Positions 4,098-44,859 of a DNA stretch of 64,000 nucleotides are shown here, piece by piece. Numbering within the stretch: position 1 is the stretch's first letter; each line of letters begins with the position of its first letter. Source of the DNA: Pseudomonas cavernae (GTDB taxonomy: Bacteria; Pseudomonadota; Gammaproteobacteria; Pseudomonadales; Pseudomonadaceae); contig NZ_CP032419.1 of NCBI RefSeq assembly GCF_003595175.1, forward strand, positions 3,968,001 to 4,032,000, given 5' to 3'. A program made the translations under genes and the position numbers. The notes below the pieces were generated by a model. The model did not search any database and was not told where the DNA came from. It was given only the letters and a program-made list of their open reading frames with translations.

Positions 4098-4259
4098 CTA
4101 ATGGCCTGTACGGTTAGTTGGTTACCTCAAGTCCGGATGGCTGAGGTTCTGAGGCAAGGCGCTGCGAGCCATAGCAGGGCTATGGCGAGGAGCAGCAACG
4201 CAGTATCAGGGCCTCAGACGCCGAAATTGACTAATTGAACTAACCACACAGGCCACTAG
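4098..4259. repeat. MITE-like palindromic element 1, flanked by CTAA/CTAG
   Basis: Terminal inverted repeats TGGCCTGT (4102-4109) and ACAGGCCA (4248-4255), extended imperfectly inward through CGGTTAGT / ACTAACC. The flanks are CTAA (4098-4101) and CTAG (4256-4259). The centre is a perfect 8-bp stem GCCATAGC/GCTATGGC with loop AGG (4168-4186). It has the same architecture as the elements at 11248, 21309 and 44589, but a different core. No coding capacity. It lies about 27 bases before the start of the 4286 gene and so may influence its leader. Confidence 0.7.
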
Positions 4260-4285
4260 CCCCACCTTCCAGCCAGGGATTCGCC

Positions 4286-5341
4286 ATGCGCACACAGTGG
4301 ATGATTTACGGCGCCAACGGCTACACCGGCAGCCTGATCGCCCGTGAAGCCGCCCGCCAAGGGCTCCGGCCGATTCTCGCCGGGCGCAACGTCGACGCCG
4401 TGGAAGCCATCGCCAGCGAGTTGCAGCTGCACGCGCGGGTCTTCGATCTGCGCGATGCCGGCGCCAGCCGTAGCGCGCTCGAGGATGTCGCTCTGGTCGT
4501 CCACTGCGCCGGGCCCTTCTCCGCCACCAGCGCGCCGATGATCGCCGCCTGCCTGGCCAGCGGCAGCCACTACGTCGACATCACCGGCGAGATCGCCGTG
4601 TTCGAGCAGGCCCAGGCCCAACATGCCGCGGCGCAGGCCGCCGGCGTGGTGCTGTGCTCGGGGGTCGGCTTCGACGTGATCCCCACCGACTGCCTGGCCG
4701 CCTGTCTCAAGCAGGCGCTGCCGGACGCCAGCCATCTGGCCCTCGGTTTCGACACCGCCAGCGGCCTGTCGCCGGGCACCGCCAAGACCTCGGTGGAAGG
4801 CCTCAAGTTCGGCGGTCAGGTGCGCGAGGCCGGGCGCCTGCGCGGCGTGCCGCTGGGCTTCAAGCGCCGCGCCATCGACTTCGGTCATGGGGTGAAAAGC
4901 GCGGTGACCATCCCCTGGGGCGATGTCGCCACCGCCTACTACTCCACCGCCATCCCGAATATCGAGGTCTACCTGCCGGCGCCCGCCGCGCTGGCGATCG
5001 GCATGCGCCTGATTGATCCGCTGCGCGGCCTGCTCGGCCGGCCCGGGGTGCAGGACTGGCTGAAGGCCCAGGTCGACCGGCGCATCGCCGGGCCGGATGC
5101 CACCGCCCGCGCGCGGCAGCCGAGCTGGGTGTGGGGCGAGGCGCGCAACGCCGCCGGCCAGGTCAGGACCGCGCGGGTGAAAACCGCCAACGGCTACCAG
5201 GTCACCGTGCACGGCGCACTGCTGGCGGCGCGGCAGCTGCTCGAATACGGCGGGCCGGGCGGCTATTTCACCCCGTCGCAGCTGTTCGGCGCCCGCTGCG
5301 TGGAGCAGCTGCCCGGCTCCGGGCGCATCGAGCTCAGCTGA
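4286..5341 (+). CDS. Saccharopine dehydrogenase-family NAD(P)-binding protein
   Basis: A 351-residue protein whose N terminus holds a Rossmann fold: WMIYGANGYTGSLIA has the GxxGxxG nucleotide motif at residues 9-15, followed by LAGRN for the adenosine ribose. HCAGPFS near 75-81 and GSHYVDITGE near 94-103 are typical of the saccharopine dehydrogenase-like/trans-acting enoyl reductase family. Members act as NAD(P)-dependent oxidoreductases on varied carbonyl or enoyl substrates. Few are true saccharopine dehydrogenases, so the reaction is unassigned. Its last 8 bases overlap convergently the end of argP. It has no same-strand partner. Confidence 0.8.
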   Translation: MRTQWMIYGANGYTGSLIAREAARQGLRPILAGRNVDAVEAIASELQLHARVFDLRDAGASRSALEDVALVVHCAGPFSATSAPMIAACLASGSHYVDITGEIAVFEQAQAQHAAAQAAGVVLCSGVGFDVIPTDCLAACLKQALPDASHLALGFDTASGLSPGTAKTSVEGLKFGGQVREAGRLRGVPLGFKRRAIDFGHGVKSAVTIPWGDVATAYYSTAIPNIEVYLPAPAALAIGMRLIDPLRGLLGRPGVQDWLKAQVDRRIAGPDATARARQPSWVWGEARNAAGQVRTARVKTANGYQVTVHGALLAARQLLEYGGPGGYFTPSQLFGARCVEQLPGSGRIELS

Positions 5342-6227: not shown

Positions 6228-6328
6228 CAGTTCTCCTAATGATCCATCAGCATGATTGGTTTTCCTTATACAGCCGAGCGCCGCAGACTGACCAGCACTC
6301 CCTCCCCGAACACAACGGAATCCCCGCC
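6228..6328. promoter_or_regulatory. Divergent argP / LysE-exporter control region
   Basis: 101 bases between the two start codons, A/T-rich for this genome around 6230-6275 (TGATTGGTTTTCCTTATACAGC). LysR regulators bind such divergent regions next to their own gene. I cannot place the exact operator. Confidence 0.5.
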
Positions 6329-6931
6329 ATGTGGCAGAGCTATCTCAACGGTTTGCTGGTCGCCATCGGCCTGATCATGGCCATCGGCGCCCAGAACGCC
6401 TTCGTCCTCGCCCAGAGCCTGCGCCGCGAGCATCACCTGCCGGTGGCGGCGCTGTGCGTGCTGTGCGATGCCGTGCTGGTGGCCGCCGGGGTGTTCGGCC
6501 TGGCCACGCTGCTGACCCAGAGCCCGCTGCTGCTCGGCATCGCCCGCTGGGGCGGCGCGGCCTTCCTGCTCTGGTACGGGGTCAAGGCGCTGCGCCGCGC
6601 GCTGAATCCACAGGCGCTGCAGGAAGCCGCCGATGCCGGCCCGCGCTCGCGGCGCGCGGTGCTGCTGACCGCCCTGGCGGTGACCCTGCTGAATCCGCAT
6701 GTGTACCTCGACACCGTGCTGCTGATCGGCTCGCTCGGCGCCCAGCAAACGGTGCCCGGCGCCTATGTGATGGGCGCCGCCAGTGCCTCGCTGCTGTGGT
6801 TCTTCAGCCTCGCCCTCGGCGCCGCCTGGCTGGCGCCGCTGCTGGCGCGACCGACGACCTGGCGCCTGCTGGACTTCGGCGTGGCGCTGATGATGTTCGT
6901 GGTCGCCGCCCAACTACTCAGCGGCCTGTAA
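6329..6931 (+). CDS. LysE/ArgO-family amino-acid exporter
   Basis: A 200-residue inner-membrane exporter of basic amino acids with five to six transmembrane helices. The family hallmark GAQNAFVLAQSLRREH follows the first helix, and LNPHVYLDTVLL marks the conserved NPH motif of the middle helix. The start at 6329 (MWQSYLNGLL) is preferred over an in-frame ATG at 6239, because that would add a polar 30-residue extension before the first helix and overlap the divergent promoter. It is paired divergently with argP, as argO is in enterobacteria, so induction by excess lysine or arginine is expected. Confidence 0.88.
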   Translation: MWQSYLNGLLVAIGLIMAIGAQNAFVLAQSLRREHHLPVAALCVLCDAVLVAAGVFGLATLLTQSPLLLGIARWGGAAFLLWYGVKALRRALNPQALQEAADAGPRSRRAVLLTALAVTLLNPHVYLDTVLLIGSLGAQQTVPGAYVMGAASASLLWFFSLALGAAWLAPLLARPTTWRLLDFGVALMMFVVAAQLLSGL

Positions 6932-7006
6932 CTCGGCCGAGCCGGCGCCGAAGCTCTGGAACCGGCTTTTCCACACAGTTGCTGCGTGGTTATGCCCCCG
7001 GTCGGG

Positions 7007-7783: not shown

Positions 7784-8422
7784 CTACAGCAGCTGTTCCG
7801 GCGGCATCGGCAGATGCAACTGCGTCGCCTGCTGCACCGCGCGGCTGAGCAACTGATCGGCCGCCACCGGCCCGAGGTATTCGCACAGGCCGATATACAG
7901 CAGGTTGAGCAGCACCCGCAGGTGCTCGAGGGTCAGCGCCGTGAGGTCGAGCGAGCCGCCCTGCTCCAGCCAGCCGCGCAGGCGCAGTTCGGCATCCAGC
8001 TGCATGCCACTCAGATTGCCGGCGGCGAAGCGGCGCAGACGCGGCACCAGGTCCGCCTCGAGCAGCTCTAAGAGAATTCGGCTCAAGGCATCGAAGGTCT
8101 GCCGCGCCCGCGCATCCGGCCCGGATACCTCGACCGCCGTCCGCCCGGCACTCTGGCGCCAGGCCTCCAGGCGCGGCGCAGGGTCCGGCAGCAGTTGCGC
8201 CGGCGAGCTGGTCAAGGCGCCGACCAACTCGCGGTAAAGTTTGGCGCGCTCGAGCTTGCGGCCGCTACGACTGGCCACTTCGGCGAGGAACTCGTTGAGG
8301 GCGAAGGGCGGCTTGTCGGCGTACTTGGCCTCCAATAGCGACAATAGCGGCCACAGCTCGTCTTCGGAGAAATGCCCGACCAGACCGGTATAGATCGCGC
8401 GCCGCCTTGTGCTCAGACTCAT
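7784..8422 (-). CDS. Hypothetical helical protein downstream of the amt remnant
   Basis: A 212-residue soluble, leucine-rich, probably all-helical protein (MSLSTRRRAIYTGLVGHFSEDELWPLL...) without signal peptide, membrane span or recognised motif. Its ATG begins one base after the stop of the degraded ammonium transporter, so both were probably one transcript. With the transporter gone, it may now be read from the same nitrogen-type promoter at 8979-8994 through the remnant. Codon use is normal and the frame is intact, so it is likely still functional. Function unknown. Confidence 0.7.
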   Translation of the reverse strand: MSLSTRRRAIYTGLVGHFSEDELWPLLSLLEAKYADKPPFALNEFLAEVASRSGRKLERAKLYRELVGALTSSPAQLLPDPAPRLEAWRQSAGRTAVEVSGPDARARQTFDALSRILLELLEADLVPRLRRFAAGNLSGMQLDAELRLRGWLEQGGSLDLTALTLEHLRVLLNLLYIGLCEYLGPVAADQLLSRAVQQATQLHLPMPPEQLL

Positions 8423-8423
8423 C

Positions 8424-8944
8424 TCAAGCCCTCCGTGTCAGTTCGTGGCGATCGTAGGTGAGCGCCTGGTTGAACTCCGGATAGCCGACTTCGGCATGCT
8501 CGGCATAATCCAGGCCGCGCTGCTCGTCCTGGGTGGAGGTGCGCAGGCCGACGGTCTTGGCCAGCAGCAGATACAGCATCAGCGCCATCGGGAAGGCCCA
8601 GGCGAAGGCCGCCGCCGAGCCGAGCGCCTGGACGCCGATGCGATCCCAGTTGAACGGGTCGGCGGCGAAGAACAGTCCGGCCGCCAGGGTGCCCCACACG
8701 CCACAGAAGCCGTGCACCGGCACCGCGCCGACCACGTCGTCGAGGGCCAGCGATCGAGCAAGCGCGAACCGAGCACCACGATGAAGCCGGCGATCAGCCC
8801 GGTGAACAGGGCGAAACCGGCCTGCATGAAGAACACCAGGGCGCTGGCGAGTACCACCCAGGCGGTATTCAGCGCCTCGTCGGTGGCCGCCTCCGCCAGG
8901 GGTGCCAGCACCGACGCCGCGAGAAACAACCAGAGTCTGTTAAT
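8424..8944 (-). pseudogene. Degraded ammonium transporter (Amt family)
   Basis: Remains of an Amt/AmtB channel. The N-terminal piece encodes a signal peptide and first helix (TDEALNTAWVVLASALVFFM), joined in frame directly to a late-helix sequence (FTGLIAGFIVVLGSRLLD). Roughly 230-250 residues of the pore are therefore missing. Near 8753 one base is lost, shifting to the frame that encodes DDVVGAVPVHGFCGVWGTL and the cytoplasmic tail down to the TGA at 8424. The expected start, eight bases after GGAGGGG, reads ATT instead of ATG (8942-8944); a TTG at 8927-8929 is the only nearby alternative. With three independent lesions it is a pseudogene unless this is sequence error. Confidence 0.85.
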
Positions 8945-8978
8945 CCTCGTCCCCTCCCAAGGTCGGGGCCAGGGCCTT

Positions 8979-8994
8979 CGCCACGCTTATGCCA
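8979..8994 (-). promoter_or_regulatory. Sigma-54 promoter candidate for the amt remnant
   Basis: On the minus strand: TGGCAT, five bases, TGGCG, with GG (8992-8993) and GC (8980-8981) separated by exactly 10 bases. The predicted start of transcription lies near 8969, about 25 bases before the ancestral amt start. Sigma-54 control is usual for amt genes. Confidence 0.5.
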
Positions 8995-9032
8995 ACGAAA
9001 ATCCCGCGCGTGGTGCTCAAGAGCGGGCCATT

Positions 9033-9049
9033 CGCACCGATACAGTGCA
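9033..9049 (-). promoter_or_regulatory. NtrC-type binding site candidate
   Basis: The minus strand reads TGCAC-TGTATCG-GTGCG, which matches the NtrC dyad TGCAC-N7-GTGCA at all but the last base. It is centred about 72 bases upstream of the predicted sigma-54 start for the amt remnant. Confidence 0.5.
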
Positions 9050-9115
9050 TAAGGCGAGGGGCGAGCGGGTGCGCCGCGTTCGCGGTTCACGCAGGCGTAG
9101 GAAGCTCCTGGCCCT

Positions 9116-9144
9116 TTGACGGCAACCGGCAGTTTGCCAATACT
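9116..9144 (+). promoter_or_regulatory. Sigma-70 promoter of bifA
   Basis: TTGACG (9116-9121), 17 bases, AATACT (9139-9144), with an expected start near 9151. It lies 43 bases before the TTG start of bifA and argues against any start codon upstream of it. Confidence 0.6.
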
Positions 9145-9187
9145 CACCGCGGTCGGACGCCGACGGTATCGAACAAGGAATAGGCAT

Positions 9188-11251
9188 TTGAAGCTGGAAC
9201 ACCGACACAGCTTGTCACTGAAGTTGCTCCGGGTAGTGCTGCTGTCTGCATTGGTCGTCGGCGTGGTGCTGAGCTGCGGGCAGATCATGTTCGACGCCTA
9301 CAAGACCCGGCAGGCGGTCGCCAATGATGCCCAGCGCATCCTCGACATGTTCCGCGATCCCTCGACCCAGGCGGTCTACAGCCTCGATCGGGAAATGGGC
9401 ATGCAGGTGATCGAAGGGCTGTTCCAGAACCAGGCGGTGCGTTTCGCCGCCATCGGCCACCCCAACGAACCGATGCTGGCGGAAAAGTCCCGCGACCTGA
9501 CCCCGCTGTCGACCCGCTGGCTGACCGACCCGATCCTCGGCCAGGAACAGAGCTTCACCACCCAACTGGTTGGCCGCGGCCCCTACAGCGAGTATTACGG
9601 CGACCTGACCATCACCCTCGACACCGCGCCCTACGGCGAGAACTTCGTCACCAGCTCGGTGGTCATCTTCATTTCCGGGGTGCTGCGCGCCCTGGCCATG
9701 GGCCTGGTGCTCTATCTGGTCTACCACTGGCTGCTGACCCGGCCGCTGTCGAAGATCATCGAGCACCTCAGCAGCATCAACCCGGACCGCCCCAGCGAGC
9801 ACAAGCTGCCGATGCTCAAGGGCCACGAACGCAACGAACTGGGGCTGTGGATCAACACCGCCAATCAGTTGCTCGCCTCCATCGAACGCAACACCCACCT
9901 GCGCCGCGAGGCCGAGAACAGCCTGCTGCGCATGTCGCAGTACGACTTCCTCACCGGCCTGCCGAACCGCCAGCAGCTGCAGCAGCAGCTCGACCAGATC
10001 CTCGCCGACGCCGGCCGCCTGCAACGCCGGGTCGCGGTGCTGTGCGTCGGCCTCGACGACTTCAAAGGCATCAACGAACAGTTCAGCTACCAGACCGGCG
10101 ACCAGCTGCTGCTCGCCCTTTCCGACCGCCTGCGCGGTCACAGCGGCCGCCTCGGCGCCCTGGCGCGCCTGGGCGGCGACCAGTTCGCCCTGGTCCAGGC
10201 CGACATCGAACAACCCTACGAAGCCGCCGAATTGGCCCAGAGCGTGCTCGACAACCTGGAAGCGGCCTTCAGTCTCGACCAGCAGGAAGTGCGCCTGCGC
10301 GCCACCATCGGCATCACCCTGTTCCCCGAGGACGGCGACAGCACCGAGAAGCTGCTGCAGAAAGCCGAGCAGACCATGACCCTGGCCAAGAGCCGCTCGC
10401 GCAACCGCTACCAGTTCTACATCGCCAGCGTCGACAGCGAGATGCGCCGCCGCCGCGAGCTGGAAAAAGACCTGCGCGACGCCCTGGCGCTGGGCCAGCT
10501 GCACCTGGTCTACCAGCCGCAGGTGGACTACCGCGACCACCGCGTGGTCGGCGTCGAGGCGCTGCTGCGCTGGCAGCACCCGCAGCACGGCTTCGTGCCG
10601 CCGGACCTGTTCATCCCGCTGGCCGAACAGAACGGCAGCATCATCCCGATCGGCGAATGGATTCTCGACCAGAGCTGCCGGCAGCTGCGCGAATGGCATG
10701 ACCAGGGTTTCAGCGAGCTGCGCATGGCGGTCAACCTGTCCACCGTGCAGCTGCACCACGCCGAGCTGCCACGGGTGGTCAACAACCTGATGCAGGTCTA
10801 CCGCCTGCCGCCGCGCAGCCTGGAGCTGGAAGTCACCGAAACCGGCCTGATGGACGACATCACCACCGCCGCTCAGCACCTGCTCAGCCTACGCCGCTCC
10901 GGCGCGCTGATCGCCATCGACGACTTCGGCACCGGCTATTCCTCGCTGAGCTACCTGAAGAGCCTGCCGCTGGACAAGATCAAGATCGACAAGAGCTTCG
11001 TCCAGGACCTGCTCGACGACGAAGACGACGCCACCATCGTTCGCGCCATCATCCAGCTGGGCAAGAGCCTGGGCATGCAGGTGATCGCCGAAGGGGTGGA
11101 AACCGCCGAGCAGGAGGCCTATATCATCGCCCAGGGCTGCAACGAGGGTCAGGGCTACCTGTATAGCAAACCGCTGCCGGCGCGCGACCTGACCCTGTTC
11201 CTCAAGCAGGCCCGGCGCCTGAGCCACGCCGGCAATCCCCTTCCGCTCTAA
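9188..11251 (+). CDS. bifA: c-di-GMP phosphodiesterase BifA (degenerate GGDEF plus EAL)
   Basis: An inner-membrane enzyme that hydrolyses cyclic di-GMP and so promotes swarming and biofilm dispersal. The chosen start is TTG at 9188, eight bases after AAGGA. It gives 687 residues, the known P. aeruginosa BifA length, and begins LKLEHRHSLSLKLL. Two membrane helices (about 12-32 and 175-197) flank a periplasmic sensor region. The GGDEF domain has GGDQF at 329-333, the degenerate form characteristic of BifA, so no cyclase activity is expected. The EAL domain has EALLR at 457-461 and the catalytic DDFGTGYSSLSYL loop. It lies next to sodB as in P. aeruginosa. Its TAA stop forms part of the flank of a palindromic element. 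Confidence 0.93.
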   Translation: MKLEHRHSLSLKLLRVVLLSALVVGVVLSCGQIMFDAYKTRQAVANDAQRILDMFRDPSTQAVYSLDREMGMQVIEGLFQNQAVRFAAIGHPNEPMLAEKSRDLTPLSTRWLTDPILGQEQSFTTQLVGRGPYSEYYGDLTITLDTAPYGENFVTSSVVIFISGVLRALAMGLVLYLVYHWLLTRPLSKIIEHLSSINPDRPSEHKLPMLKGHERNELGLWINTANQLLASIERNTHLRREAENSLLRMSQYDFLTGLPNRQQLQQQLDQILADAGRLQRRVAVLCVGLDDFKGINEQFSYQTGDQLLLALSDRLRGHSGRLGALARLGGDQFALVQADIEQPYEAAELAQSVLDNLEAAFSLDQQEVRLRATIGITLFPEDGDSTEKLLQKAEQTMTLAKSRSRNRYQFYIASVDSEMRRRRELEKDLRDALALGQLHLVYQPQVDYRDHRVVGVEALLRWQHPQHGFVPPDLFIPLAEQNGSIIPIGEWILDQSCRQLREWHDQGFSELRMAVNLSTVQLHHAELPRVVNNLMQVYRLPPRSLELEVTETGLMDDITTAAQHLLSLRRSGALIAIDDFGTGYSSLSYLKSLPLDKIKIDKSFVQDLLDDEDDATIVRAIIQLGKSLGMQVIAEGVETAEQEAYIIAQGCNEGQGYLYSKPLPARDLTLFLKQARRLSHAGNPLPL

Positions 11252-11394
11252 GAACCTGTTCACGATCTGCTGCGCGTCGGCCATACGGCGTTGAAATCGG
11301 GCTCAGAATGCTCATTTACAGCTTGTAAACTGCGCTTCTTCGTCCAATTTCGCCTTGTCTGGCTCTAGCTCGCGAGATCGTGAACAGGTTCTAA
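11248..11394. repeat. MITE-like palindromic element 2, flanked by CTAA
   Basis: Perfect 17-bp terminal inverted repeats GAACCTGTTCACGATCT (11252-11268) and AGATCGTGAACAGGTTC (11375-11391). Both ends carry CTAA (11248-11251 and 11391-11394); the left TAA is the bifA stop codon. The centre (11307-11338) has AATGCTCATTTACA, a short loop, then TGTAAACTGCGCTT, shared with elements 3 and 4. About 140 bp, no coding capacity. Confidence 0.8.
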
Positions 11395-11398
11395 CGGC

Positions 11399-12292
11399 TT
11401 ACCAGGCCAGACCGAGCAACCAGGCGCTGCCGGCCGCCCCCGCCAGGCACAGCACGGCCGCCCCGGCCGCCTGCCAATGGAACTGGCGGGCCAGATCGTC
11501 CTCGCCGTAACTCGACAGGATGAACGGCTGCGCCTCGCGCGGCCGCGCCAGATGGTCCTGCTGCGGCTGCAGGCTGACCTGGCGGTGGCGCTCCTCGGCC
11601 TCCAGGCGTGCGGCCAGGCGCACGCGGTTCCATTCCGGGTCGTCCAGGCGGCCATTCCGGTCGCTGTCGAAGCGCTGCAGCAAGCCGTCGAAGTCGCCCT
11701 TCCACTCGCGGATCACCTGGCCCTGGGCCGTCGCCAGATCCAGGCCCTGGCGCCCACCACCGGACGTACGGAACTCGCCGATGGCGTACAGCGGCTCGCC
11801 GGCATGCAGGCGTTCCTCGGTATAACGGTACTCCGCGCCACTGGCCAACCAGCCAAACAGACCGCGCGGCGCCACACCCCGGGGGTGGCGCAGGCTGCCC
11901 CGCCACCGCTCGCGAGTGGCCGGCCGCACCTCGGCACCCTGCGGATCGATCAGACAGCTGCCGGAGGCGTCGCGCAGGCGCAGCCAGCCCTCGCTGCAGC
12001 CACGCTCCACCACGCGCCAGCTTCTGCGCTTGCCGTCGCTGCTGTACTCCTCGATCTTGAAGCGCCACCACAGGCACGGCTTGCCGGTCAGCGGCGCGAC
12101 GATGAGCGCCTCGGGAAGCGCCTCGAGCAGGCCGTAGAACTCGGCATAGCCCTGGGCGGCCGAGCGGATCTTCGAGGTCGGAGTATCCAGCAGATGACGC
12201 GCCTGGGCCAGGCGCCGCAGGCACCACCAGGCGCCAGCCAGGGTCGCACCGCCACTGCATGCCAGGCCGACGACCAGGCCCTGAATATCCAC
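11399..12292 (-). CDS. GIDE-domain membrane protein with an EF-hand loop
   Basis: A 297-residue membrane protein of the GIDE/MUL1 (BAM-domain) family. Helices at about 5-25 and 272-295 enclose a large domain with PCLWWRFKIEEYSSDGKRRSW near 72-92, typical of GIDE sequences. There is no RING finger, so ubiquitin-ligase activity is not implied. Residues 209-220 (DSDRNGRLDDPE) fit the 12-residue EF-hand calcium loop with acidic or Asn residues at positions 1, 3, 5, 9 and 12. The start is GTG at 12292, four bases after the LemA-family gene, so the two are one operon. The likely role is envelope membrane organisation together with LemA; the details are unknown. Confidence 0.75.
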   Translation of the reverse strand: MDIQGLVVGLACSGGATLAGAWWCLRRLAQARHLLDTPTSKIRSAAQGYAEFYGLLEALPEALIVAPLTGKPCLWWRFKIEEYSSDGKRRSWRVVERGCSEGWLRLRDASGSCLIDPQGAEVRPATRERWRGSLRHPRGVAPRGLFGWLASGAEYRYTEERLHAGEPLYAIGEFRTSGGGRQGLDLATAQGQVIREWKGDFDGLLQRFDSDRNGRLDDPEWNRVRLAARLEAEERHRQVSLQPQQDHLARPREAQPFILSSYGEDDLARQFHWQAAGAAVLCLAGAAGSAWLLGLAW

Positions 12293-12296
12293 GGGC

Positions 12297-12869
12297 TCAG
12301 CCGAACAGTTGCTTGAGGTCGACGTCGGCCTTTTCCGCCGCGCTGAACTCCAGCAGCTCGGCGGACCGGAAGCCGAACCCGCGGGCGATCAGCACGTCGG
12401 GGAACTGCTCGATGCGCACGTTGTTGAGGTTAACCGCCTCGTTGTACAGCTCGCGGCGATCGGCGATGCCGTTCTCCAGGCCGCTGATGCGCTGCTGGAG
12501 GAACTGGAAGCTCTCGTTGGCCTTCAGCTCCGGATAGTTTTCCGCCAGCGCGAACAGCTGCCCGAGGCCGGCGCGCAGGCCGCTTTCCGCCTGGCCGAGG
12601 GCCCCCAGATCGTGCTTCTCGCGGGCACTGGCCACGGCGTTGCGGGCGGCGATCACCTGCTCCAGGGTGGTGCGCTCGTGCTGCATGTACTGCTTGCAGG
12701 TTTCCACCAGTTTGGGCAGCTCGTCATGGCGCTGCTTGAGCAACACCTCGATGTTCGCCCACGCCTTGCCGACCCCGTGCTTCAGACGCACCAGGGCGTT
12801 GTAGAGGATCACTGCGTACGCGGCGACCAGGACGACCAACACCACAACCACCACACCGCTCACGCTCAT
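12297..12869 (-). CDS. LemA family membrane protein
   Basis: A 190-residue protein with one N-terminal membrane helix (about residues 4-24) and a long helical-bundle domain. LemA hallmarks are LYNALVRLKHGVGKAWANIE, LLKQRHDELPKLVE and ELYNEAVNLNNVRIEQFP. LemA proteins are widespread, function poorly known, and are often paired with GIDE-domain or TPM-domain partners. This one is followed four bases later by a GIDE gene. It is divergent from icmP across a 215-base gap. Confidence 0.88.
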   Translation of the reverse strand: MSVSGVVVVVLVVLVAAYAVILYNALVRLKHGVGKAWANIEVLLKQRHDELPKLVETCKQYMQHERTTLEQVIAARNAVASAREKHDLGALGQAESGLRAGLGQLFALAENYPELKANESFQFLQQRISGLENGIADRRELYNEAVNLNNVRIEQFPDVLIARGFGFRSAELLEFSAAEKADVDLKQLFG

Positions 12870-13000
12870 GCTTGCTGCTCCATAACGACTGCTCCATCGG
12901 CTTGCGACTCATTGACTAAGCGGAGTCTAAAGGCATTGTGGCCGTTCGGCGCAGGTCCTCGCCCGCCTCATCTGCGCCGAGAGAACGCTGGCCCTTTGCA

Positions 13001-13019
13001 CAAAATGAAAATCTTTCGC
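13001..13019. promoter_or_regulatory. Candidate Fur box upstream of icmP
   Basis: The 19 bases from CAAAATGAAAATC onward match the Fur consensus GATAATGATAATCATTATC at 13 of 19 positions, including the central AATGA and AATC. It is 66 bases before the icmP start. Iron-repressed expression of the icmP gene set is the expected consequence. Confidence 0.5.
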
Positions 13020-13084
13020 ATTATGTCGCGGTTTTGCATGTGCACCGCGCAGCCTCCTCATCACACGACGCAAAGGACCTCGCC

Positions 13085-14419
13085 ATGATTCGTATGCCCC
13101 TGGCTTCCGCCAGCCTGTTGGCCATTGCCATTTCGCTCGCCGGTTGTGGCGATGACAAAGCCCCGGCCACCCAGGCCGCCGCACCAGCCGCCCCGGCTGC
13201 CAGCGCGCCTGCCGCCAGCACCGGCAAAGTCGACGAAGCGGCCGCCAAGGCCGTGGTCGCCCATTACGCCGAGCTCGGCTACGCGGTGTTCAACGATGCC
13301 GCCAGCACCGGCAAGGCCCTGCAGGCTGCGGTCGATGCCCTGCTCGCCAGCCCCAGCGCCGACACCCTGAAAGCCGCCCGCGATGCCTGGCTGGCCGCCC
13401 GCGTACCCTACATGCAGACCGAGGTGTTCCGCTTCGGCAACGGCGTGGTCGACGACTGGGAAGGCCAGCTCAACGCCTGGCCGCTGGACGAAGGCCTGAT
13501 CGACTACGTCGCCGACGGCAGCGCCGAAGCCCAGGGCAACCCGGCCGCCAAGGCCAACATCATCGCCAACAGCGAGATCCAGGTCGGCGAAGACAAGATC
13601 GACGTCAAGGACCTCAGCGGCGAGAAACTCGCCGAGCTGAACGAACTGGGCGGCTCCGAAGCCAACGTCGCCACCGGCTACCACGCCATCGAATTCCTCC
13701 TCTGGGGCCAGGACCTGCATGGCACCGGCGCTGGCGCCGGCGAGCGCCCGGCCAGCGACTACCTGGTCGGCGAAGGCGCCACCGGCGGCCATAACGACCG
13801 CCGCCGCGCCTACCTGAAGGCCGCCACCGACCTGCTGGTCAAGGACCTGGAGTGGATGGTCGGCCAATGGAAGCCGGGCGTTGCCGACAACTACCGCGCC
13901 AAGCTGGAAGCCGAATCGGCGGACAGCGGCCTGCGCAAGATGCTGTTCGGCATGGGCAGCCTGTCCCTCGGCGAGCTGGCCGGCGAGCGCATGAAAGTCG
14001 CCCTGGAAGCCAACTCCACCGAAGACGAGCACGACTGCTTCAGCGACAACACCCACAACTCGCACTTCTTCGATGGCAAGGGCATCCGCAACGTCTACCT
14101 CGGCGAATACAAGCGCGTCGACGGCAGCACCCTGAGCGGCCCGAGCCTGTCCTCGCTGGTGGCCAAAGCCGCGCCGGCCACCGACGACACCCTCAAGGCC
14201 GACTTCGCCGACACCGAGAAGAAGCTGCAGGCCCTGGTCGACAGCGCCAACAACGGTCAGCACTTCGACCAGCTGATCGCCGCCGACAACAGCGCCGGCC
14301 AGCCGCTGATCCGCGACGCCATCGCCGCCCTGGTCAAGCAGACCACTGGCATCGAGCAGGCCGCCGGCGCCCTCGGCATCAGCGACCTGAAGCCGGACAC
14401 CGCCGATCACCAGTTCTGA
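13085..14419 (+). CDS. icmP: Imelysin-family lipoprotein IcmP
   Basis: A 444-residue M75/imelysin-family lipoprotein. SLAGC with Cys21 is the lipobox, followed by an Ala/Pro-rich linker and the helical imelysin domain. The family motif GxHxxE is intact at residues 198-203 (GYHAIE). In P. aeruginosa this protein was named insulin-cleaving metalloproteinase. The family is now usually linked to periplasmic iron handling (EfeO-like). The start at 13085 is chosen because it begins the signal peptide and follows AAAGGACCTCGCC. A candidate Fur box lies upstream and three more iron- or redox-related genes follow. Confidence 0.9.
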   Translation: MIRMPLASASLLAIAISLAGCGDDKAPATQAAAPAAPAASAPAASTGKVDEAAAKAVVAHYAELGYAVFNDAASTGKALQAAVDALLASPSADTLKAARDAWLAARVPYMQTEVFRFGNGVVDDWEGQLNAWPLDEGLIDYVADGSAEAQGNPAAKANIIANSEIQVGEDKIDVKDLSGEKLAELNELGGSEANVATGYHAIEFLLWGQDLHGTGAGAGERPASDYLVGEGATGGHNDRRRAYLKAATDLLVKDLEWMVGQWKPGVADNYRAKLEAESADSGLRKMLFGMGSLSLGELAGERMKVALEANSTEDEHDCFSDNTHNSHFFDGKGIRNVYLGEYKRVDGSTLSGPSLSSLVAKAAPATDDTLKADFADTEKKLQALVDSANNGQHFDQLIAADNSAGQPLIRDAIAALVKQTTGIEQAAGALGISDLKPDTADHQF

Positions 14420-14437
14420 TCGCCTAGCAGTACCGAA

Positions 14438-14467
14438 ACGGATGCGGCGCCTGCCGCATCCGTTTTT
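14438..14467 (+). terminator. Rho-independent terminator after icmP
   Basis: ACGGATGCGGC pairs with GCCGCATCCGT around a four-base loop, followed by a T run. It separates icmP from the next three genes, which may therefore depend on read-through or a promoter within 14468-14565. Confidence 0.8.
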
Positions 14468-14565
14468 TTATGCCCACCACCCAGGCCAAACGCTAATTCC
14501 TCTTATTTGAGCGAACGCGGCCTGTTAAGCTAGCCCGCCGCCCGCCCCTGCCAGGACTGCTGTCG

Positions 14566-15984
14566 ATGCCCGCCCTGCTCCGCCGTCTTTCGCCGCTGCT
14601 GCTGACCTTGAGTCTGGCGGCCTGCGACCAGGCGCCGCGCTTTAGCCAGGCCGAGCCCGGCGAAGCGCTGTCGGCCGGCAGCGTCAGCGTCAGACCAGCC
14701 GGCCAGCACAGCTTTTCCCAACCCTCGGCGAATCTCTCCGCCGAGCGCCGGCTGGACTTCAGCGTCGGCGACAGTTTCTTCCAAAACCCCTGGGTGATCG
14801 CCCCCTCCACAACCACCGCGCGTGACGGTCTCGGTCCGCTGTTCAACAGCAACGCCTGCGAGAACTGCCACATCAATGACGGCCGCGGCCATCCGCCGGC
14901 CGCCGGCGCCCGCAATGCGGTGTCGATGCTGGTGCGTCTATCGATCCCCGCCGCCGGCGCCGAACAGGCGCAACTGCTCGAACGCCTCGGCGTGGTGCCC
15001 GAGCCGGTGTACGGCGGCCAGTTGCAGGACATGGCCAATCCCGGCATCACCCCCGAAGGCAAGGTGCGCGTGGAGTACCGCTCGCAACTGGTCAACTTCA
15101 GCGACGGCGCCATGGTCAAGCTGCGCCGGCCGCTCCTGCGCATCAGCCGACTCGGCTATGGCCCGCTGCATCCGCAGACGCAGTTCTCCGCCCGCGTCGC
15201 CCCGCCGATGATCGGCCTCGGCCTGCTCGAAGCCATTCCCGAGGCCGCGATCCTGGCCAACGCCGAGGCGCAACGCCGGCAGAACAACGGCATCGCCGGC
15301 CAGCCCAACTGGGTCTGGGACGATGCCCAGCAAAAGACCGTGCTCGGGCGCTTCGGCTGGAAGGCCGGACAGCCGAGCCTCAATCAGCAGAACGCCCACG
15401 CCTTTGCCGGCGACCTCGGCCTGACCAGCAGCCTGCAACCACAGGACAACTGCACGGCGGCGCAGACCGCTTGCCGCCAGGCGGCCCATGGCGGCACCCC
15501 GGAAGTCAGCGACAACATCCAGCGCCTGGTGCTGTTCTACACCCGCAACCTCGGCGTGCCGGCCCGCCGCGATGTCGGCTCGGCCCAGGTGCTGCAGGGC
15601 AAGGGCCTGTTCCATCAGGCCGGCTGCCAGCAATGCCATACCCCGCAATTCACCACCGGCGCCGATGCCGCCGAACCGGAACTGGCCAACCAGGTGATTC
15701 GCCCCTACAGCGACCTGCTGCTGCATGACATGGGCGAGGGCCTGGCCGACGGCCGCCCCGAGTTCCAGGCCAGTGGTCGCCAGTGGCGCACTCCGCCGCT
15801 GTGGGGCATCGGCCTGACCGAAACGGTCAGCGGCCACAGCCAGTTCCTGCATGACGGCCGCGCCCGCAACCTGTTGGAGGCCATCCTCTGGCACGGCGGC
15901 GAGGCCGAGGCGGCCAAGCAACAGGTGCTCACCTTCGATGCCGGCCAGCGTGACGCGCTGCTGGCTTTCCTGAATTCGCTTTAA
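14566..15984 (+). CDS. Di-heme oxidoreductase family lipoprotein (DUF1111)
   Basis: A 472-residue periplasmic c-type cytochrome of the di-heme oxidoreductase (DHOR, formerly thiol oxidoreductase) family. SLAAC with Cys20 is a lipobox. Heme motifs are CENCH at 98-102 and CQQCH at 354-358. GLGPLFNSNACENCHINDGRGHPP and RTPPLWGIGLTETVSGH...FLHDGRA are family signatures. It lies 11 bases before the second imelysin gene. DHOR and imelysin genes commonly occur together in pseudomonads, which suggests an electron-transfer step (for example changing iron redox state) in a periplasmic iron system. The actual substrate is not known. Confidence 0.85.
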   Translation: MPALLRRLSPLLLTLSLAACDQAPRFSQAEPGEALSAGSVSVRPAGQHSFSQPSANLSAERRLDFSVGDSFFQNPWVIAPSTTTARDGLGPLFNSNACENCHINDGRGHPPAAGARNAVSMLVRLSIPAAGAEQAQLLERLGVVPEPVYGGQLQDMANPGITPEGKVRVEYRSQLVNFSDGAMVKLRRPLLRISRLGYGPLHPQTQFSARVAPPMIGLGLLEAIPEAAILANAEAQRRQNNGIAGQPNWVWDDAQQKTVLGRFGWKAGQPSLNQQNAHAFAGDLGLTSSLQPQDNCTAAQTACRQAAHGGTPEVSDNIQRLVLFYTRNLGVPARRDVGSAQVLQGKGLFHQAGCQQCHTPQFTTGADAAEPELANQVIRPYSDLLLHDMGEGLADGRPEFQASGRQWRTPPLWGIGLTETVSGHSQFLHDGRARNLLEAILWHGGEAEAAKQQVLTFDAGQRDALLAFLNSL

Positions 15985-15995
15985 AGGAGCCGTGC

Positions 15996-17060
15996 ATGTT
16001 CCGCCCGAAACTCTTGTTCACCAGCCTCGCCGCCCTCGCCCTCGGCGCCTGCTCGCCGCAGGACCAGCACGCGCAGACTTCCGCCGCCCTGGCCCAGCAG
16101 GTGATCCTGCCGACCTACAGCCGCTGGGTCGAGGCCGACCGCCAACTGGCCAAGAGCGCCCTGGCGTTCTGCTCCGGCCAGACAGACCTGGAAAAAGCCC
16201 GCGCCGATTTCTACAGCGCACAGAAAGCCTGGGCCGAGCTGCAGCCGCTGCTGGTCGGCCCGTTGGCCGAAGGCAACCGCGCCTGGCAGGTGCAGTTCTG
16301 GCCGGACAAGAAGAACCTGGTCGGCCGCCAAGTCGAGCAACTGGTCAAGGCCCAGCCGCAGATCGATGCCGCCGCCCTGGCCAAGGCCAGCGTCGTGGTG
16401 CAGGGCTTGTCCGCCTACGAATACATCCTCTTCGACAGCCAGATCGACCTCGCCGACAGCGCACAGAAGGCCCGCTACTGCCCGCTGCTGGAGGCCATCG
16501 GCGCCCGCCAGCAGTCGCTGGCCGAAGAAATCCTCGCGCGCTGGAACAACAAGGACGGCATGCTCGAACAGCTGAGCAAGTTCCCCAACCCGCGCTACGC
16601 CGATTCCCACGAGGCCATCGCCGAACTGCTGCGGGTGCAGGTCACCGCCCTCGACACCCTGAAGAAGAAGCTCGGCACCCCGCTCGGCCGCCTGAGCAAG
16701 GGCATCCCCCAGCCGCTGCAGGCCGAGGCCTGGCGCAGTCAGGCCTCGCTGGCCAACCTCGGTGCCAGCCTGGCCAGCGCCGAAGCGCTGTGGCGCGGGG
16801 TCGACGATCACGGCCTGCGCGGCCTGCTCGGCAGCGAGCAGCAGGCCCTGGCCGAGCGCATCGACGCCGCCTACGCCGTGGCCCGGCAGAAGCTCGAGGC
16901 GCTGCAGCCGCCGCTCGACCAACTGCTCGCCAGCGAACAGGGGCGCCAGCAGCTGAACGACTTCTACGACAGCCTCAACAGCGTGCATCGCCTGCAGGAA
17001 AGCGACCTCGCCAAGGCGCTGGGCGTGCAGCTGGGCTTCAACGCCAACGATGGCGACTGA
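15996..17060 (+). CDS. Second imelysin-family lipoprotein
   Basis: A 354-residue lipoprotein with LGAC lipobox and an imelysin-type helical domain. At the position of the GxHxxE motif it reads GLSAYE (residues 137-142): the His is replaced by Ser while the Glu is kept, so metal binding may differ from IcmP. The start follows AAAGGAGCCGTGC. It is tightly packed between the di-heme gene (11 bases) and the DUF1513 gene (12 bases), so the three form one operon. Confidence 0.85.
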   Translation: MFRPKLLFTSLAALALGACSPQDQHAQTSAALAQQVILPTYSRWVEADRQLAKSALAFCSGQTDLEKARADFYSAQKAWAELQPLLVGPLAEGNRAWQVQFWPDKKNLVGRQVEQLVKAQPQIDAAALAKASVVVQGLSAYEYILFDSQIDLADSAQKARYCPLLEAIGARQQSLAEEILARWNNKDGMLEQLSKFPNPRYADSHEAIAELLRVQVTALDTLKKKLGTPLGRLSKGIPQPLQAEAWRSQASLANLGASLASAEALWRGVDDHGLRGLLGSEQQALAERIDAAYAVARQKLEALQPPLDQLLASEQGRQQLNDFYDSLNSVHRLQESDLAKALGVQLGFNANDGD

Positions 17061-17072
17061 GGAGGCCCGAAC

Positions 17073-18167: not shown

Positions 18168-18171
18168 AGCT

Positions 18172-18200
18172 CTGAAAGCCCTGCGCTACGGAGCTTTCAG
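18172..18200 (+). terminator. Weak terminator-like hairpin after the DUF1513 gene
   Basis: CTGAAAGC (18172-18179) pairs with GCTTTCAG (18193-18200). No T run follows, so termination is uncertain. Confidence 0.4.
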
Positions 18201-18302
18201 GCGCGCCCGCGCCGTAAACAATCCGACCGCCGGCGCTCAAGCGGCGACGCCCCCGGCCGATCCATGGGGACTCGAATCCGCTTGCCCCCGAGGTGCATGA
18301 CC

Positions 18303-20166: not shown

Positions 20167-21312
20167 ATGTTGCTCCGCCGCATGCTCACCATGCTGGGGG
20201 TTGTGCTCGTCGTGGTGCTGCTCCTGGCCAGCTACAAAGCCTTCTCGATCCGCGAACAGATCAAGCAATTCTCCGCGCCCCAGCCACCGATCAGCGTCTC
20301 GGCGGCGATTGCCGAGCAGCGCCAGTGGCAGGAACGCCTGCCGGCCATCGGTACGCTCAAGGCCTCGCAGGGCGTCGACCTCACCGTCGAAGTCACCGGC
20401 ACCGTGCGTGATGTGCTGTTCCGCTCCGGCGAGCATGTCGCCGCTCACCAGCCGCTGATCCAGATGGACGGCGCGGTCGAGCAGGCCTCGCTGGAATCCG
20501 CCGAAGCCGAGCTGAACCTCGCCCGCGTCGAATTCGAGCGTGGCCGCAGCCTGATCAGCCGGCAGATGATCTCCAAGAGCGATTTCGACCGCCTCGCCTC
20601 GCAGCTGCAGCAAAACAGCGGCCGGGTCGCACAGCTCAAGGCGCTGCTCGGCAAGAAGCGCATCCTCGCGCCGTTCGCCGGCACCATCGGTATCCGCCAG
20701 ATCGACGTGGGCGACTACCTCGCCTCGGGCACCACCATCGCCACCCTGCAGGATCTCTCGACCCTGTACGTCGACTTCTTCCTGCCCGAGCAGGCGGTGC
20801 CCAAGTTGCAGGTCGGCCAGCGCGTACAGCTCGGCGTCGCGGCCTTCCCGGGCGAGGCGTTCATGGGCGAGCTCGCCGCGATCAACCCGAAGGTCGACGA
20901 GAACACCCGCAACGTGCAGGTCCGCGCGACCCTGCCCAACCCGGGCGAGAAGCTGTTGCCGGGCATGTTCGCCAACCTCACCGTGCTGCTGCCGAACAGC
21001 GCAGCACGCGTGGTGGTGCCGGAAACCGCGGTGACCTTCTCGCTGTACGGCAACTCGATCTACGTCGTCGAGGCGGAGAAGAACGACGACGGCAGCGCCA
21101 AGCACGACGACCAGGGCCAGCCGCGCCTGGTGGCCAAGCGCGTGTTCGTCGAGACCGGTGAGCGCCGCGACGGTGAGGTGGTGGTGCTCAAGGGCCTGAC
21201 CGCCGGCCAACAGGTGGTCACCACCGGCCAGCTCAAGCTGGATAACGGCGCGCACGTCAGCATCGTCGCCGAGCCCGCCGCCCGCACCACCAGCCAGGCC
21301 AGCGGCCGCTAA
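20167..21312 (+). CDS. mexV: RND efflux periplasmic adaptor, MexV-like
   Basis: A 381-residue membrane-fusion protein anchored by an uncleaved helix (about residues 6-25), linking an inner-membrane RND pump to an outer-membrane channel. GTLKASQGVDLTVEVTGTV and VRDVLFRSGEHV begin the barrel-sandwich (lipoyl) domain. A helical hairpin spans about 105-155, then comes APFAGTIGIRQIDVGDYL. The start at 20167 follows AAGGAACCGGAAT. The gene order after an icmP/DUF1513 set matches mexVW as I recall it. The TAA stop forms the flank of a palindromic element that separates it from the pump gene. Confidence 0.85.
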   Translation: MLLRRMLTMLGVVLVVVLLLASYKAFSIREQIKQFSAPQPPISVSAAIAEQRQWQERLPAIGTLKASQGVDLTVEVTGTVRDVLFRSGEHVAAHQPLIQMDGAVEQASLESAEAELNLARVEFERGRSLISRQMISKSDFDRLASQLQQNSGRVAQLKALLGKKRILAPFAGTIGIRQIDVGDYLASGTTIATLQDLSTLYVDFFLPEQAVPKLQVGQRVQLGVAAFPGEAFMGELAAINPKVDENTRNVQVRATLPNPGEKLLPGMFANLTVLLPNSAARVVVPETAVTFSLYGNSIYVVEAEKNDDGSAKHDDQGQPRLVAKRVFVETGERRDGEVVVLKGLTAGQQVVTTGQLKLDNGAHVSIVAEPAARTTSQASGR

Positions 21313-21456
21313 CAGGCCGTTGAAAAATGTAGGCGAGGCAGCCGAGACAAGGCAAAAACGGCCGAAAAAGCGCAGTTTACGTGTTGTAAATGAGCATTTT
21401 GAGGCTGTTTTTAACGCCGGATCGGCAACGTAGGTAATTTTTCAACGGCCTGCTAA
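21309..21456. repeat. MITE-like palindromic element 3, inside the mexVW operon
   Basis: Perfect 16-bp terminal inverted repeats CAGGCCGTTGAAAAAT (21313-21328) and ATTTTTCAACGGCCTG (21437-21452), flanked by the exact direct repeat CTAA(C) at 21309-21313 and 21453-21457. The left TAA is the mexV stop. The central part (21369-21398) carries AGCGCAGTTTAC, a short loop, then TGTAAATGAGCATT, the reverse complement of the core in elements 2 and 4. It fills the 170-base gap between adaptor and pump genes. Confidence 0.85.
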
Positions 21457-21482
21457 CCCGGGTGCTGGAAAAGGAATCATCC

Positions 21483-33406: not shown

Positions 33407-33550
33407 TGTCGATCTCTCCTAATTGAGTGGTTTCCATCGCCGATGCGCGCACCGGCTGGTTGGCAAATTCCGGCGTTGCCGGGTGCGACCCGCAGAGCGG
33501 GCCGCAGAAGACTGACTGTCGTAGCCGACAGTGACCTTGCGGTGACAGCT

Positions 33551-33578
33551 AGATAGGGGCGCCCGCCGGCATTTCAAG
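33551..33578 (-). promoter_or_regulatory. Sigma-32 heat-shock promoter of groESL
   Basis: On the minus strand CTTGAAA (33578-33572), 12 to 13 bases, then CCCCTATCT (33559-33551), close to the consensus CTTGAAA-N11-16-CCCCATNT. It lies 145 bases before groES. Confidence 0.75.
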
Positions 33579-40649: not shown

Positions 40650-42531
<1,882 letters not shown>

Positions 42532-42576
42532 TGGCGCGCTACCCTGCCGACTCCGTCTGCCGTGATCTTTTCCGCC

Positions 42577-44592
42577 ATGTCCCTGCGCCAGCGCCTCGAA
42601 GACCTGCCGGTTGGCCAGAAACTGCTGTCCGCCGTACTGGTACTGCTCGCCACCGTGTTGCTGGTGGCCAACCTCAGTTTCATCAGCGCCGCCTACTGGA
42701 TCTCCCAGGAGAACATGGCCCCGCAGGCGCTGCACACCCTCGGCCGCCTGATCGCCAACCCGGCGCTGAGCCGGGTGGCGCTGAGCTCGCCGGCCGCCGC
42801 CGAAGAGCTGCTGCACCGCCTCGACGGCTACGCGCCGTTGCGCGCGGCGGCGCTCTACGACGGCCAGGGCAACGTGCTCGGTCAGCTGCAGCAAGGCGGT
42901 GAGCCGCTGTACTTGCCGCTGCACCTGGAGAAGATTGCCAGCTGGCGCATCGGCGAGTTCCGCGCCACCCAACTGATCGAGCTGCCGCAGGAAGGGCAAA
43001 GCCCCGGCCATCTGCTGCTGGTCGCCTCCAGCGAACTGCCTAGCGCCTTCTACACCGGCACCCTCACCGCCAGCCTGGTGATCCTCGCCCTCAGCGTTCT
43101 GCTCTGGCTGCTGGTGGCGCAGCAGATCCGCCGCCTGGTGACCCGGCCGATCCTCGAACTCGAAGCGCTGTCGCGCCAGGTCACCCGCGAGGAGAACTAC
43201 GCCCTGCGCGCCCGCCGCGGCAACCGCGACGAGATCGGTCACCTGGCCGACTCCTTCAACACCATGCTGACCCGCATCGAGGCCCGCGAACAGCAGCTCA
43301 AGCGTGCCCGCGATGAGGCCCAGGCGGCCTTCGACCAGGCCCAGAGCCTGGCCGAGGAAACCCGCCACTCCAACCGCAAGCTGGAACTGGAAGTGCAGGT
43401 GCGCAGCAAGATCGAGAAGAAGCTCACCGGCTTCCAGAACTATCTGAACGGCATCATCGACTCCATGCCCTCGGCGCTGATCGCTCTCGACGAGGAGCTC
43501 TACGTCACCCAGTGGAACCAGGAAGCCAGCGCCCTCTCCGGCACCCAGCTGGACGAGGCGCTGAACCAGCCGGTGTTCCTCGCCTTCCCGTCGCTGAAGT
43601 TCTACCTCAACCAGCTTAAGCGCACGGCGGAGCAGCATAAGGTCGAGAAGATCGAGCGGGTGACCTGGAGCAAGGACGGCGAGCCGCGCCACTATGCGCT
43701 GACCTTCTACCCGCTGATGGGCGGCAGCCTGCGCGGCGTGGTGATCCGCATCGACGACATCACCCAGCGCCTGTCCATGGAGGAAATGATGGTGCAGTCG
43801 GAGAAGATGCTCTCGGTCGGTGGCCTGGCGGCTGGCATGGCGCACGAGATCAACAACCCCCTCGGCGCCATTCTGCATAACGTGCAGAACATTCGCCGGC
43901 GCCTGTCGCCGGAGCTGGAGAAGAACCTCGAGCAGGCCGCCAACGCCGGCGTCGACCTGGCCCAGGTCAACTGCTACCTGAAGAGCCGCGAGGTACCGCA
44001 ACTGCTCGATGGCATCCAGCAGGCCGGGTCGCGGGCGGCGAAAATCGTCACCCACATGCTCAGCTTCAGCCGCCGCAGCGACCGTCAGCTGGCGCCTTGC
44101 GAACTGCCGGCGCTACTCGATCAGGCGGTGGACATCGCCGGCAACGATTTCGACCTCACCGAAGGCTTCGACTTCAAGGGCCTGAGCATCGTCCGCGACT
44201 TCGACCCGCGGCTCGGCGCGGTGCCGGCCACCGCCAACGAGCTGGAACAGGTGCTGCTCAACCTGCTGAAAAACGCCGCCCAGGCCATCCACCTGCGCGA
44301 GAACGACAGCGAGCCGGGGCGCATCAGCCTGCGCACCCGCCTGAACCCGCCGTGGGCAGAAATCCAGGTGGAAGACAACGGCATCGGCATGTCGGAGCGG
44401 GTGCGCAAGCGCATCTTCGAGCCGTTCTTCACCACCAAGGAAGTCGGCCAGGGCACCGGCCTCGGCCTGTCCGTGTCCTACTTCATCATCACCAACAACC
44501 ACAAAGGGCAGATGGAGGTGCAGTCGCAACTCGGCCAGGGCACCTGCTTCACCCTGCGCCTGCCACTGGCGGCCAGCACGCCCGGAACCTGA
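42577..44592 (+). CDS. Membrane sensor histidine kinase (HAMP-PAS-HisKA-HATPase)
   Basis: A 671-residue kinase. Helices at about 16-38 and 165-190 flank a periplasmic sensor. HAMP, a coiled coil of about 60 residues and a PAS domain ([25 protein letters not shown]) follow. His423 in [12 protein letters not shown] is the phosphorylated residue, with [20 protein letters not shown] and [10 protein letters not shown] for ATP binding. This HisKA type (HEINNPLG) is typical of NtrB/DctB-like sensors. The start at 42577 is tentative; a GTG at 42562 is also in frame, and neither has a good ribosome site. Its TGA is part of the flank of a palindromic element. The likely partner is the response regulator two genes upstream. 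Confidence 0.85.
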
Positions 44593-44859
44593 GAAGGTGT
44601 TTTCAACTTGGCTGTGGGCTTCGCGCGTGATGCTGCGTTAAAAATGGCTTCGGGAAGCAGCTTTGCTGCTGACGCGCTTTAGCGCGGCCCGAAGGGCGAG
44701 TGAAACGAGCAATGCTCATTTACACCTCGTAAACTCCGCTTCCTCAGCCATTTTGACTCGCTATGCTCGCCCTAAGGGCCAGCCTCCGGCTGTTACTTCG
44801 CTTCGCAGCGTTTTACCTTGCCTGACCTTCGCTCGCCTAATTTGAAAACACCTTCTGAG
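44589..44859. repeat. MITE-like palindromic element 4, flanked by CTGAG
   Basis: Terminal inverted repeats AAGGTGTTTTCAA (44594-44606) and TTGAAAACACCTT (44842-44854) are flanked by the direct repeat CTGAG (44589-44593 and 44855-44859). The left TGA is the kinase stop codon. It is longer (261 bp) than the others, with extra internal palindromes (for example AGCGCG, GAAGGGCGAG). The core at 44711-44742 has AATGCTCATTTACA followed by GTAAACTCCGCTTC, shared with elements 2 and 3. It ends 14 bases before the next start codon. Confidence 0.8.

Follow-up and report, generated by a model that had tools for sequence, protein, structure and literature searches.

The window analysed here is a stretch of 64,000 nucleotides of the Pseudomonas cavernae genome (contig NZ_CP032419.1, positions 3,968,001 to 4,032,000), in which a first-pass annotation had described four palindromic elements, here called elements 1 to 4. 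We read the four places directly as sequence. Palindromes are present at all four places; elements 2, 3 and 4 share a core, while element 1 lacks it. Judged by their sequence, elements 2, 3 and 4 are members of a superfamily of miniature inverted-repeat transposable elements (MITEs) that occupies at least 149 places in the genome, and each of the three begins at the stop codon of an open reading frame (ORF). Their features are as follows.

11249..11251, plus strand: left duplication TAA of element 2, which doubles as the stop codon of ORF 9116-11251
11252..11391, plus strand: element 2, 140 bp, with type A ends GAACCTGTTCACGATCT; the right duplication TAA is at 11392-11394
11307..11337, plus strand: core hairpin of element 2, AATGCTCATTTACA-loop-GTAAACTGCGCTT
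21309..21312, plus strand: left duplication CTAA of element 3, which contains the stop codon TAA of ORF 20089-21312
21313..21452, minus strand: element 3, 140 bp, with type B ends CAGGCCGTTGAAAAA; the right duplication CTAA is at 21453-21456
21368..21398, minus strand: core hairpin of element 3
44590..44592, plus strand: left duplication TGA of element 4, which doubles as the stop codon of ORF 42562-44592
44593..44855, plus strand: element 4, 263 bp, with ends GAAGGTGTTTTCAA; the right duplication TGA is at 44856-44858
about 44654..44710, plus strand: extra module left of the core of element 4 (approximate bounds, by eye against 140-bp copies)
44711..44741, plus strand: core hairpin of element 4
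about 44755..44814, plus strand: extra module right of the core of element 4 (approximate bounds, by eye)

The first-pass annotation had correctly recognized both the shared core, which reads AATGCTCATTTACA-loop-GTAAAC in all three elements, and the stop codons at their left flanks, which it assigned to putative bifA, mexV and histidine kinase genes. The flanking CTNA-type repeats that it described also exist, with the bounds corrected as listed: elements 2 and 4 fit a duplication of 3 bp, a TNA that stands within CTNAG, and a duplication of 4 bp fits element 3 alone. The terminal repeats had been said to differ completely, which is too strong: those of elements 2 and 3 do differ, but a (C/G)CTGT stretch near the end is common to types A, B and D. 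No ORF of at least 150 amino acids is contained in elements 2-4. Element 4 consists of the standard unit plus two inserted modules, and modules resembling its left one were also found in four further loci (L181, L199, L220 and L232). Optional modules occur at fixed positions of the element in several species, for example GACTCGCTACGCTCGCCCTGCGGGCC.. right of the core and GCGCGAGTC.. adjoining it. Element 3 has a near-twin elsewhere (G000:C1:806128-806275), with 99% identity over 148 bp.

When the 4.95-Mb contig of the host was searched with the exact core, 77 copies were found, compared with none for the reversed control. All 77 were retrieved with their flanks (the first set), and 66 of them, mostly of 140 bp, were aligned (alignment A1, 64 distinct rows, 11 copies omitted). 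A covariance model built from A1, called R1, matched 147 places in the host genome at E<=1e-3, a few of them partial; this is a lower bound, as 150 of 2755 first-look candidates were scored. Of the exact-core copies 75 lie within R1 matches, and the two missed cores bring the total to at least 149 places. The second set consists of 72 further R1 copies not selected by the exact core, of which 65 had clear ends and 7 were dropped; 31 of the 65 exceed 150 bp, owing to inserted modules. Many copies in the host genome are near-identical.

The copies carry several types of ends, namely A (GARCCTGTNTNNGATCT, the majority), B (CAGGCYGTTGAAAAA), C (GGYTYTGTACGAAAA), D (CAGGCYGTGTGAAAA) and others. In most of the 77 copies 12-16 of 16 end positions match between the terminal inverted repeats, and a few module-bearing copies were misbounded. 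With bounds picked by a score that rewards duplications and so favours these counts, an identical TNA stands on both sides in 53 of the 77 first-set copies and an identical YTAR in 5 (58 together), and an identical TNA duplication was found in 36 of the 65 second-set copies. A type D element in locus L014 has the duplication CCGT, which is not YTAR. At four loci (L010, L022, L029 and L073), elements abut the end of another element and the CTNAG is shared between both. When we compared the interiors of 154 copies, omitting copies with modules or with an apical loop of other length, the seven host type B interiors resembled type B interiors from elsewhere (other species, best 0.92-0.94) more than they resembled the type A interiors of the host (best 0.86-0.89). 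Interiors thus sort partly by end type across species, indicating that the changes of ends are old. The earlier proposal that the family keeps its core and tolerates new termini stands in so far as the core is kept while ends change; frequent acquisition of new ends within the host is unsupported.

We then looked for transposase-bearing insertion sequences (ISs) with matching termini, and found them for types A, B and D. The host itself has three IS1182-family genes above the model cut-off, with full copies of about 1.67 kb, and their ends CAGGCTGTGTGAAAA agree with those of the type D element in L014. We ran the IS1182 and IS5_4 models on 95 genomes including the host, and ends were sought in 60 fetched loci (L297-L356). 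Among these, an IS5-like element (L348) reads CTAA|CAGGCTGTTGAAA..TTTCAACAGCCTG|CTAA, which corresponds to the type B ends and duplication, and an IS1182 element (L312), flanked left and right by CTAG, has type D ends apart from a single differing base at the left one. The type A end pattern, searched in 144 genomes, returned mostly MITEs and coding sequence but led to locus L367, where a type A end adjoins a fragment of an IS5-like transposase that a further insertion has disrupted. A 54-residue transposase piece had matches in 32 of 194 genomes, many of them weak, and in 1215 plasmid records. Of six IS loci examined, five (L416, L417, L415, L386 and L387) have type-A-like ends and a TNA duplication, and L388 does not. 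L415, L416 and L417 are transposase-bearing IS5-family ISs of about 845 bp on named plasmids. The one on the Xanthomonas campestris CN08 plasmid (L416, 849 bp) reads TAA|GAACCTGTTCACGATCT..AGATCGTGAACAGGTTC|TAA, and its 17-bp ends and TAA duplication are identical to those of element 2. The IS1031 group duplicates TNA. The core, the only part of the interior compared, was sought in the 60 loci and matched once, in L332, outside its IS.

Further combinations of ends and interiors were observed. In two relatives (L382:1501 and L368 near 1500), type A ends stand 213 bp and 509 bp apart around interiors not showing the core, which we read as possible other passengers of type A ends. In three other relatives (L362, L379 and L380) there is a variant of type A whose subterminal loops differ (GATCTTCTGGATTAGAG). 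At about 3188-3346 of L074, about 0.8 kb beyond an IS1182 copy, we found a palindrome that has the ends CAGGCTGTGTAAAAACG and lacks the core.

When orthologous gaps in other species were compared, the element was absent in all 20: for element 3 in 9 species, with both neighbours kept, and for element 2 in 11 species, with both neighbours kept in 3. None of these divergent loci carries the same element at the same site, as an ancient fixed structure would. The orthologous gap in L283 has a few type-B-like bases.

The position of the copies relative to genes was determined with genes called by a codon model, using 74 of the 77 first-set copies (3 with unsure bounds were dropped) and the 65 of the second set. 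The element starts at a stop codon, within 1 bp, in 41 of 74 and 36 of 65 copies, 77 of 139 in total, and none of the 139 (0 of 74 and 0 of 65) falls within a called gene. If only gene-sparing sites are counted, 12.7% of TNA and 29.5% of CTNAG are stops, and the 77 of 139 exceed the latter share with P 2e-10. Within the gaps that were hit, 40 of 73 copies were at stops compared with 23.1 expected. The bias suspected earlier is therefore real; the explanation given for it, rarity of the target inside genes, is not, because genes hold 608 of the 835 CTNAG sites examined, with 160 between genes and 67 at stops. TNA stands for TAA, TGA, TTA or TCA, each of which reads as a stop codon on one of the two strands; an insertion there therefore rebuilds the stop. 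The orientation of the copies is also biased: at stops the core strand is the gene strand in 56 of 77 copies (31 to 10 and 25 to 11; P 8e-5), whereas away from stops the ratio was 11 to 13, determined for the first set on those 24 of its 33 copies that have a gene end facing them. Target asymmetry was set aside as the cause of this bias: among the 54 of 74 first-set copies with identical TNA, duplications were 25 forward and 10 reverse at stops, and 8 and 11 elsewhere.

The interior folds imperfectly into a hairpin that has internal loops and a conserved bulged base and is unequal between the strands. In the 64 distinct rows of A1 (47 pairs), pairing holds in 94.1% of the cells, both partners change in 25 pairs and covariation is 0.265, compared with 85.3%, 14.5 and 0.111 in shuffles and covariation of at most 0.095 in slid versions. 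The stems covary around nearly invariant internal loops. The hairpin is kept in 71 of 72 second-set copies, where its positions are 96-100% conserved except position S (C in 51, G in 20). The next pair outward of the conserved loop is A-T in 44 and C-G in 18 and is paired in 64 of 71; the second and third pairs outward are intact in 45 and 38 of 71, many of these copies carrying modules. On the strand opposite the core, the fixed mismatches are GA/GA (T52, C53, T89 and C90 are invariant in the 66 A1 rows) and GSAG/UGA. By analogy with RNA motifs, these could form sheared G.A pairs. In a second alignment (A2, 109 rows including three weak opposite-strand matches), TC/TC is present on both sides in 76 of 102 core-bearing rows under a strict pattern. 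The strand opposite the core has the lower fold energy in 64 of 64 host copies and 93 of 105 other copies, and for the inner hairpin alone in 44 of 44 host and 88 of 93 other copies. An RNA role of the core strand was set aside, with fold energies against it and wobble counts mixed. The folded form may be RNA, and DNA hairpins are conceivable as well. By eye, an A-tract and a T-tract flank the inner stem, and the core contains a short frame ATG-CTC-ATT-TAC..TAA, probably a by-product of the stem.

The first-pass annotation had also supposed that the elements replace native terminators. This was not borne out: in a simple scan of 8000-24000 for a GC-rich stem-loop followed by a T run, no terminator-like site was found at elements 2 and 3, and a terminator as the main role was set aside on this ground. 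No Rfam 15 match was found at an element, either in the window at the gathering score or in 7 loci at E 0.1.

The hairpin is widely spread. Besides the host, the extended core is present in 13 of 56 relatives, and a scan of 84,980 species gave at least 120 stretches with the hairpin. Among the matches listed are Pseudomonas, Stutzerimonas, Halopseudomonas, Thiopseudomonas, Halomonas, Vreelandella, Salinicola and Chromohalobacter, and also Motiliproteus, Cycloclasticus, Methylococcaceae, Nitrosomonas, Mariprofundales, Desulfobulbaceae, Alistipes and Bacteroidaceae. The hairpin thus occurs in Gamma-, Beta- and Zetaproteobacteria, Desulfobulbaceae and Alistipes bins, the distant ones being mostly metagenome bins. 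When 19 of these genomes were re-searched with a 27-base pattern, it was found in 18 and in more than one copy in 11, while the control gave 0 in each. The counts include bin SZAS (43), strain MFB021 (37), Salinicola (28), Halomonas (9), Vreelandella (8), Cycloclasticus (7) and Mariprofundales (4); the four Alistipes or Bacteroidaceae bins had 4, 1, 3 and 1. Two plasmids match only the interior of element 2, that of Halomonas sp. PA16-9 with 81% over 20-120 and that of Pseudomonas veronii with 77% over 23-122. A viral origin was considered and set aside; 8 stretches were found in IMG/VR, and element 2 had no match in phages.

Element 1 (about 4102-4255) belongs to another palindromic family than elements 2-4. 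Its flanks are unequal, CTAA versus CTAG, and its ends (window 4098-4259) read TGGCCTGTACGGTTAGTT. In 707 kb of host genome searched, one relative was found, in locus L034 at 6289-6413, and this relative is broken by half of a type A element. Elsewhere in the window, 33439-33552 on the minus strand matches the Rfam family Pseudomon-groES RNA with 96.1 bits.

When the literature was searched by the letters of the core and ends and by topic, within a coverage that excludes subscription journals, no description of the family was found. A Xanthomonas oryzae primer contains the type A end, according to the accessible part of its source (PMC4853030). The nearest known system is MITEPsy1 of Pseudomonas syringae, which the accessible text describes as a gene-less element of 100 nt, present in six copies in that strain, with a 4-bp duplication of CTAG or YTAA, and moved by the IS5-family ISPsy2 with near-identical ends, its transposition having been observed (PMC3189936). 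The present elements resemble it as small gene-less elements with an IS5-family partner, and type B and the YTAR rule are similar; among the features compared, MITEPsy1 differs by its length, its copy number and its end sequence GGAAGGTCTGAAAAAGCC, and the accessible text of PMC3189936 does not mention a stop-codon bias. ERIC and QMITE2 are likewise long, imperfect and intergenic palindromes (PMC10969869, PMC5896051, as far as accessible), and QMITE2 is described as lying mainly in 3' untranslated regions with relatives in distant bacteria (PMC5896051), a likeness by description and not by letters. Element 2 had no match in 20,395 E. coli records (E 1e-5), which speaks against similarity to ERIC. 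REP and REPIN sequences moved by RAYT are described in the accessible text as palindromes of 20-40 bp with a GTAG or CGTC tag (PMC3733652), and identity with them was rejected in view of the 140-bp units, terminal repeats and TNA duplications. The ISs themselves differ from the elements, the IS5-family ones of about 845 bp sharing type A ends and the target rule but having a transposase gene, and IS1182 sharing type D ends but being autonomous. Four features by which a MITE is recognized were found here, namely terminal inverted repeats, target-site duplication, the lack of a transposase gene and, for types A, B and D, an autonomous IS whose ends agree; the absence at 20 of 20 orthologous gaps is indirect evidence of mobilisation.

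Based on these observations, we suggest that elements 2, 3 and 4 are probably non-autonomous MITEs with a 140-bp basic unit, which would be moved in trans by IS5 and IS1182 transposases, whose insertions at stops would be tolerated, and whose interior would be an older module. As first proposed, the family appears mobile and non-autonomous, and this nature, together with the IS5 and IS1182 partners, is well supported at the level of sequence. Mobility is supported there by the terminal repeats, the TNA and YTAR duplications, the ISs with the same ends, the dispersed copies and the absence at orthologous gaps. According to the proposed mechanism, the transposases would act through the terminal repeats that each element carries, and an IS5-type transposase would insert it at TNA. 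An insertion at a gene's own stop would duplicate the stop and leave the protein intact, so that such insertions would be kept while those inside genes would be lost. The interior might have outlived changes of ends by structure-specific recognition, more likely on the strand opposite the core than on the core strand.

Here, we need to consider several points that weigh against this explanation. The excess at stops is larger than the target motif would give, so that tolerance by itself may be insufficient as an explanation. Within the host, a full partner IS is lacking for types A and B, as judged by the IS5_4 model and by the 54-residue piece, which had no host match, and no partner IS was found for type C ends or for the ends of element 4. 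Identical TNA or YTAR pairs are lacking in 19 of 77 core copies, which we read as decay or misjudged bounds, and the remaining counts profit from the scoring described above. The orthologous gaps are too diverged to display a clean empty target. As for the hairpin, relatedness of the copies inflates covariation; G.U exceeds A.C on the core strand by 190 to 142 over all 47 pairs of A2, reversing to 70 to 142 only after two conserved wobble columns are removed; and, besides the incomplete TC/TC count given above, about 9 of the 102 core-bearing matches, which come from other genomes, have the CTSC side of their inner loop broken by an insert.

What the interior is can be answered in different ways. 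It is conceivable, with somewhat less than even chances, that it is an independent old hairpin module with a bulged A and G.A pairs opposite the core, which would have been kept by structure-specific recognition, re-equipped with ends of several DDE groups and spread through Pseudomonadota, Desulfobulbaceae and Bacteroidota, and which would sit on stops because TNA insertion is harmless. The full wobble count and the inserts in the inner loop speak against it. We regard it as doubtful, though a serious contender, that the elements are ordinary IS-dependent MITEs with a functionless interior, kept uniform by recent bursts, horizontal transfer and arm-to-arm copying. The many near-identical copies and the partial sorting of interiors by end type would agree with this, and changes at neighbouring stem positions are often joint, which is what copying between the arms, an alternative to selection for the covariation, would produce. 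On the other hand, the loop positions are 96-100% constant while the next pair outward switches, and the same hairpin turns up again in several classes, and in bins of Bacteroidota, where its ends and stems are different; both observations argue against a functionless interior.

A different role, in which the element would serve the host as a structured RNA or as a 3'-end signal (in termination, RNA stability or processing), would be spread by transposition and would be selected for placement after stops, seems unlikely. The stop excess beyond the target expectation, the orientation bias seen at stops and not elsewhere, and the strong hairpins would suit such a signal; the missing terminator-like sites at elements 2 and 3, the lack of an Rfam match at an element, the absence at orthologous gaps and the better-folding strand, which at stops is mostly antisense to the gene, argue against it. 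It is very improbable that the hairpin is primarily a substrate of a single-strand enzyme, such as a Y1 transposase or an integron-type recombinase, with the terminal repeats secondary. Its imperfect shape, conserved bulged base, internal loops and unequal strands recall such substrates, but mobility needs no such enzyme, given the terminal repeats, the TNA and YTAR duplications and the exact matches to DDE-type ISs.

A MITE is commonly regarded as what deletion has left of a single IS within a single clade. In the family described here, one folded interior is combined with ends belonging to at least three transposase groups and recurs well outside a single class, so that one has to ask what selects for it. 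The fact that TNA is a stop codon on one strand offers a simple and testable reason for a harmless accumulation at gene ends. Finally, the orientation bias seen only at stops provides a handle on the role that the hairpin may have in the transcript.

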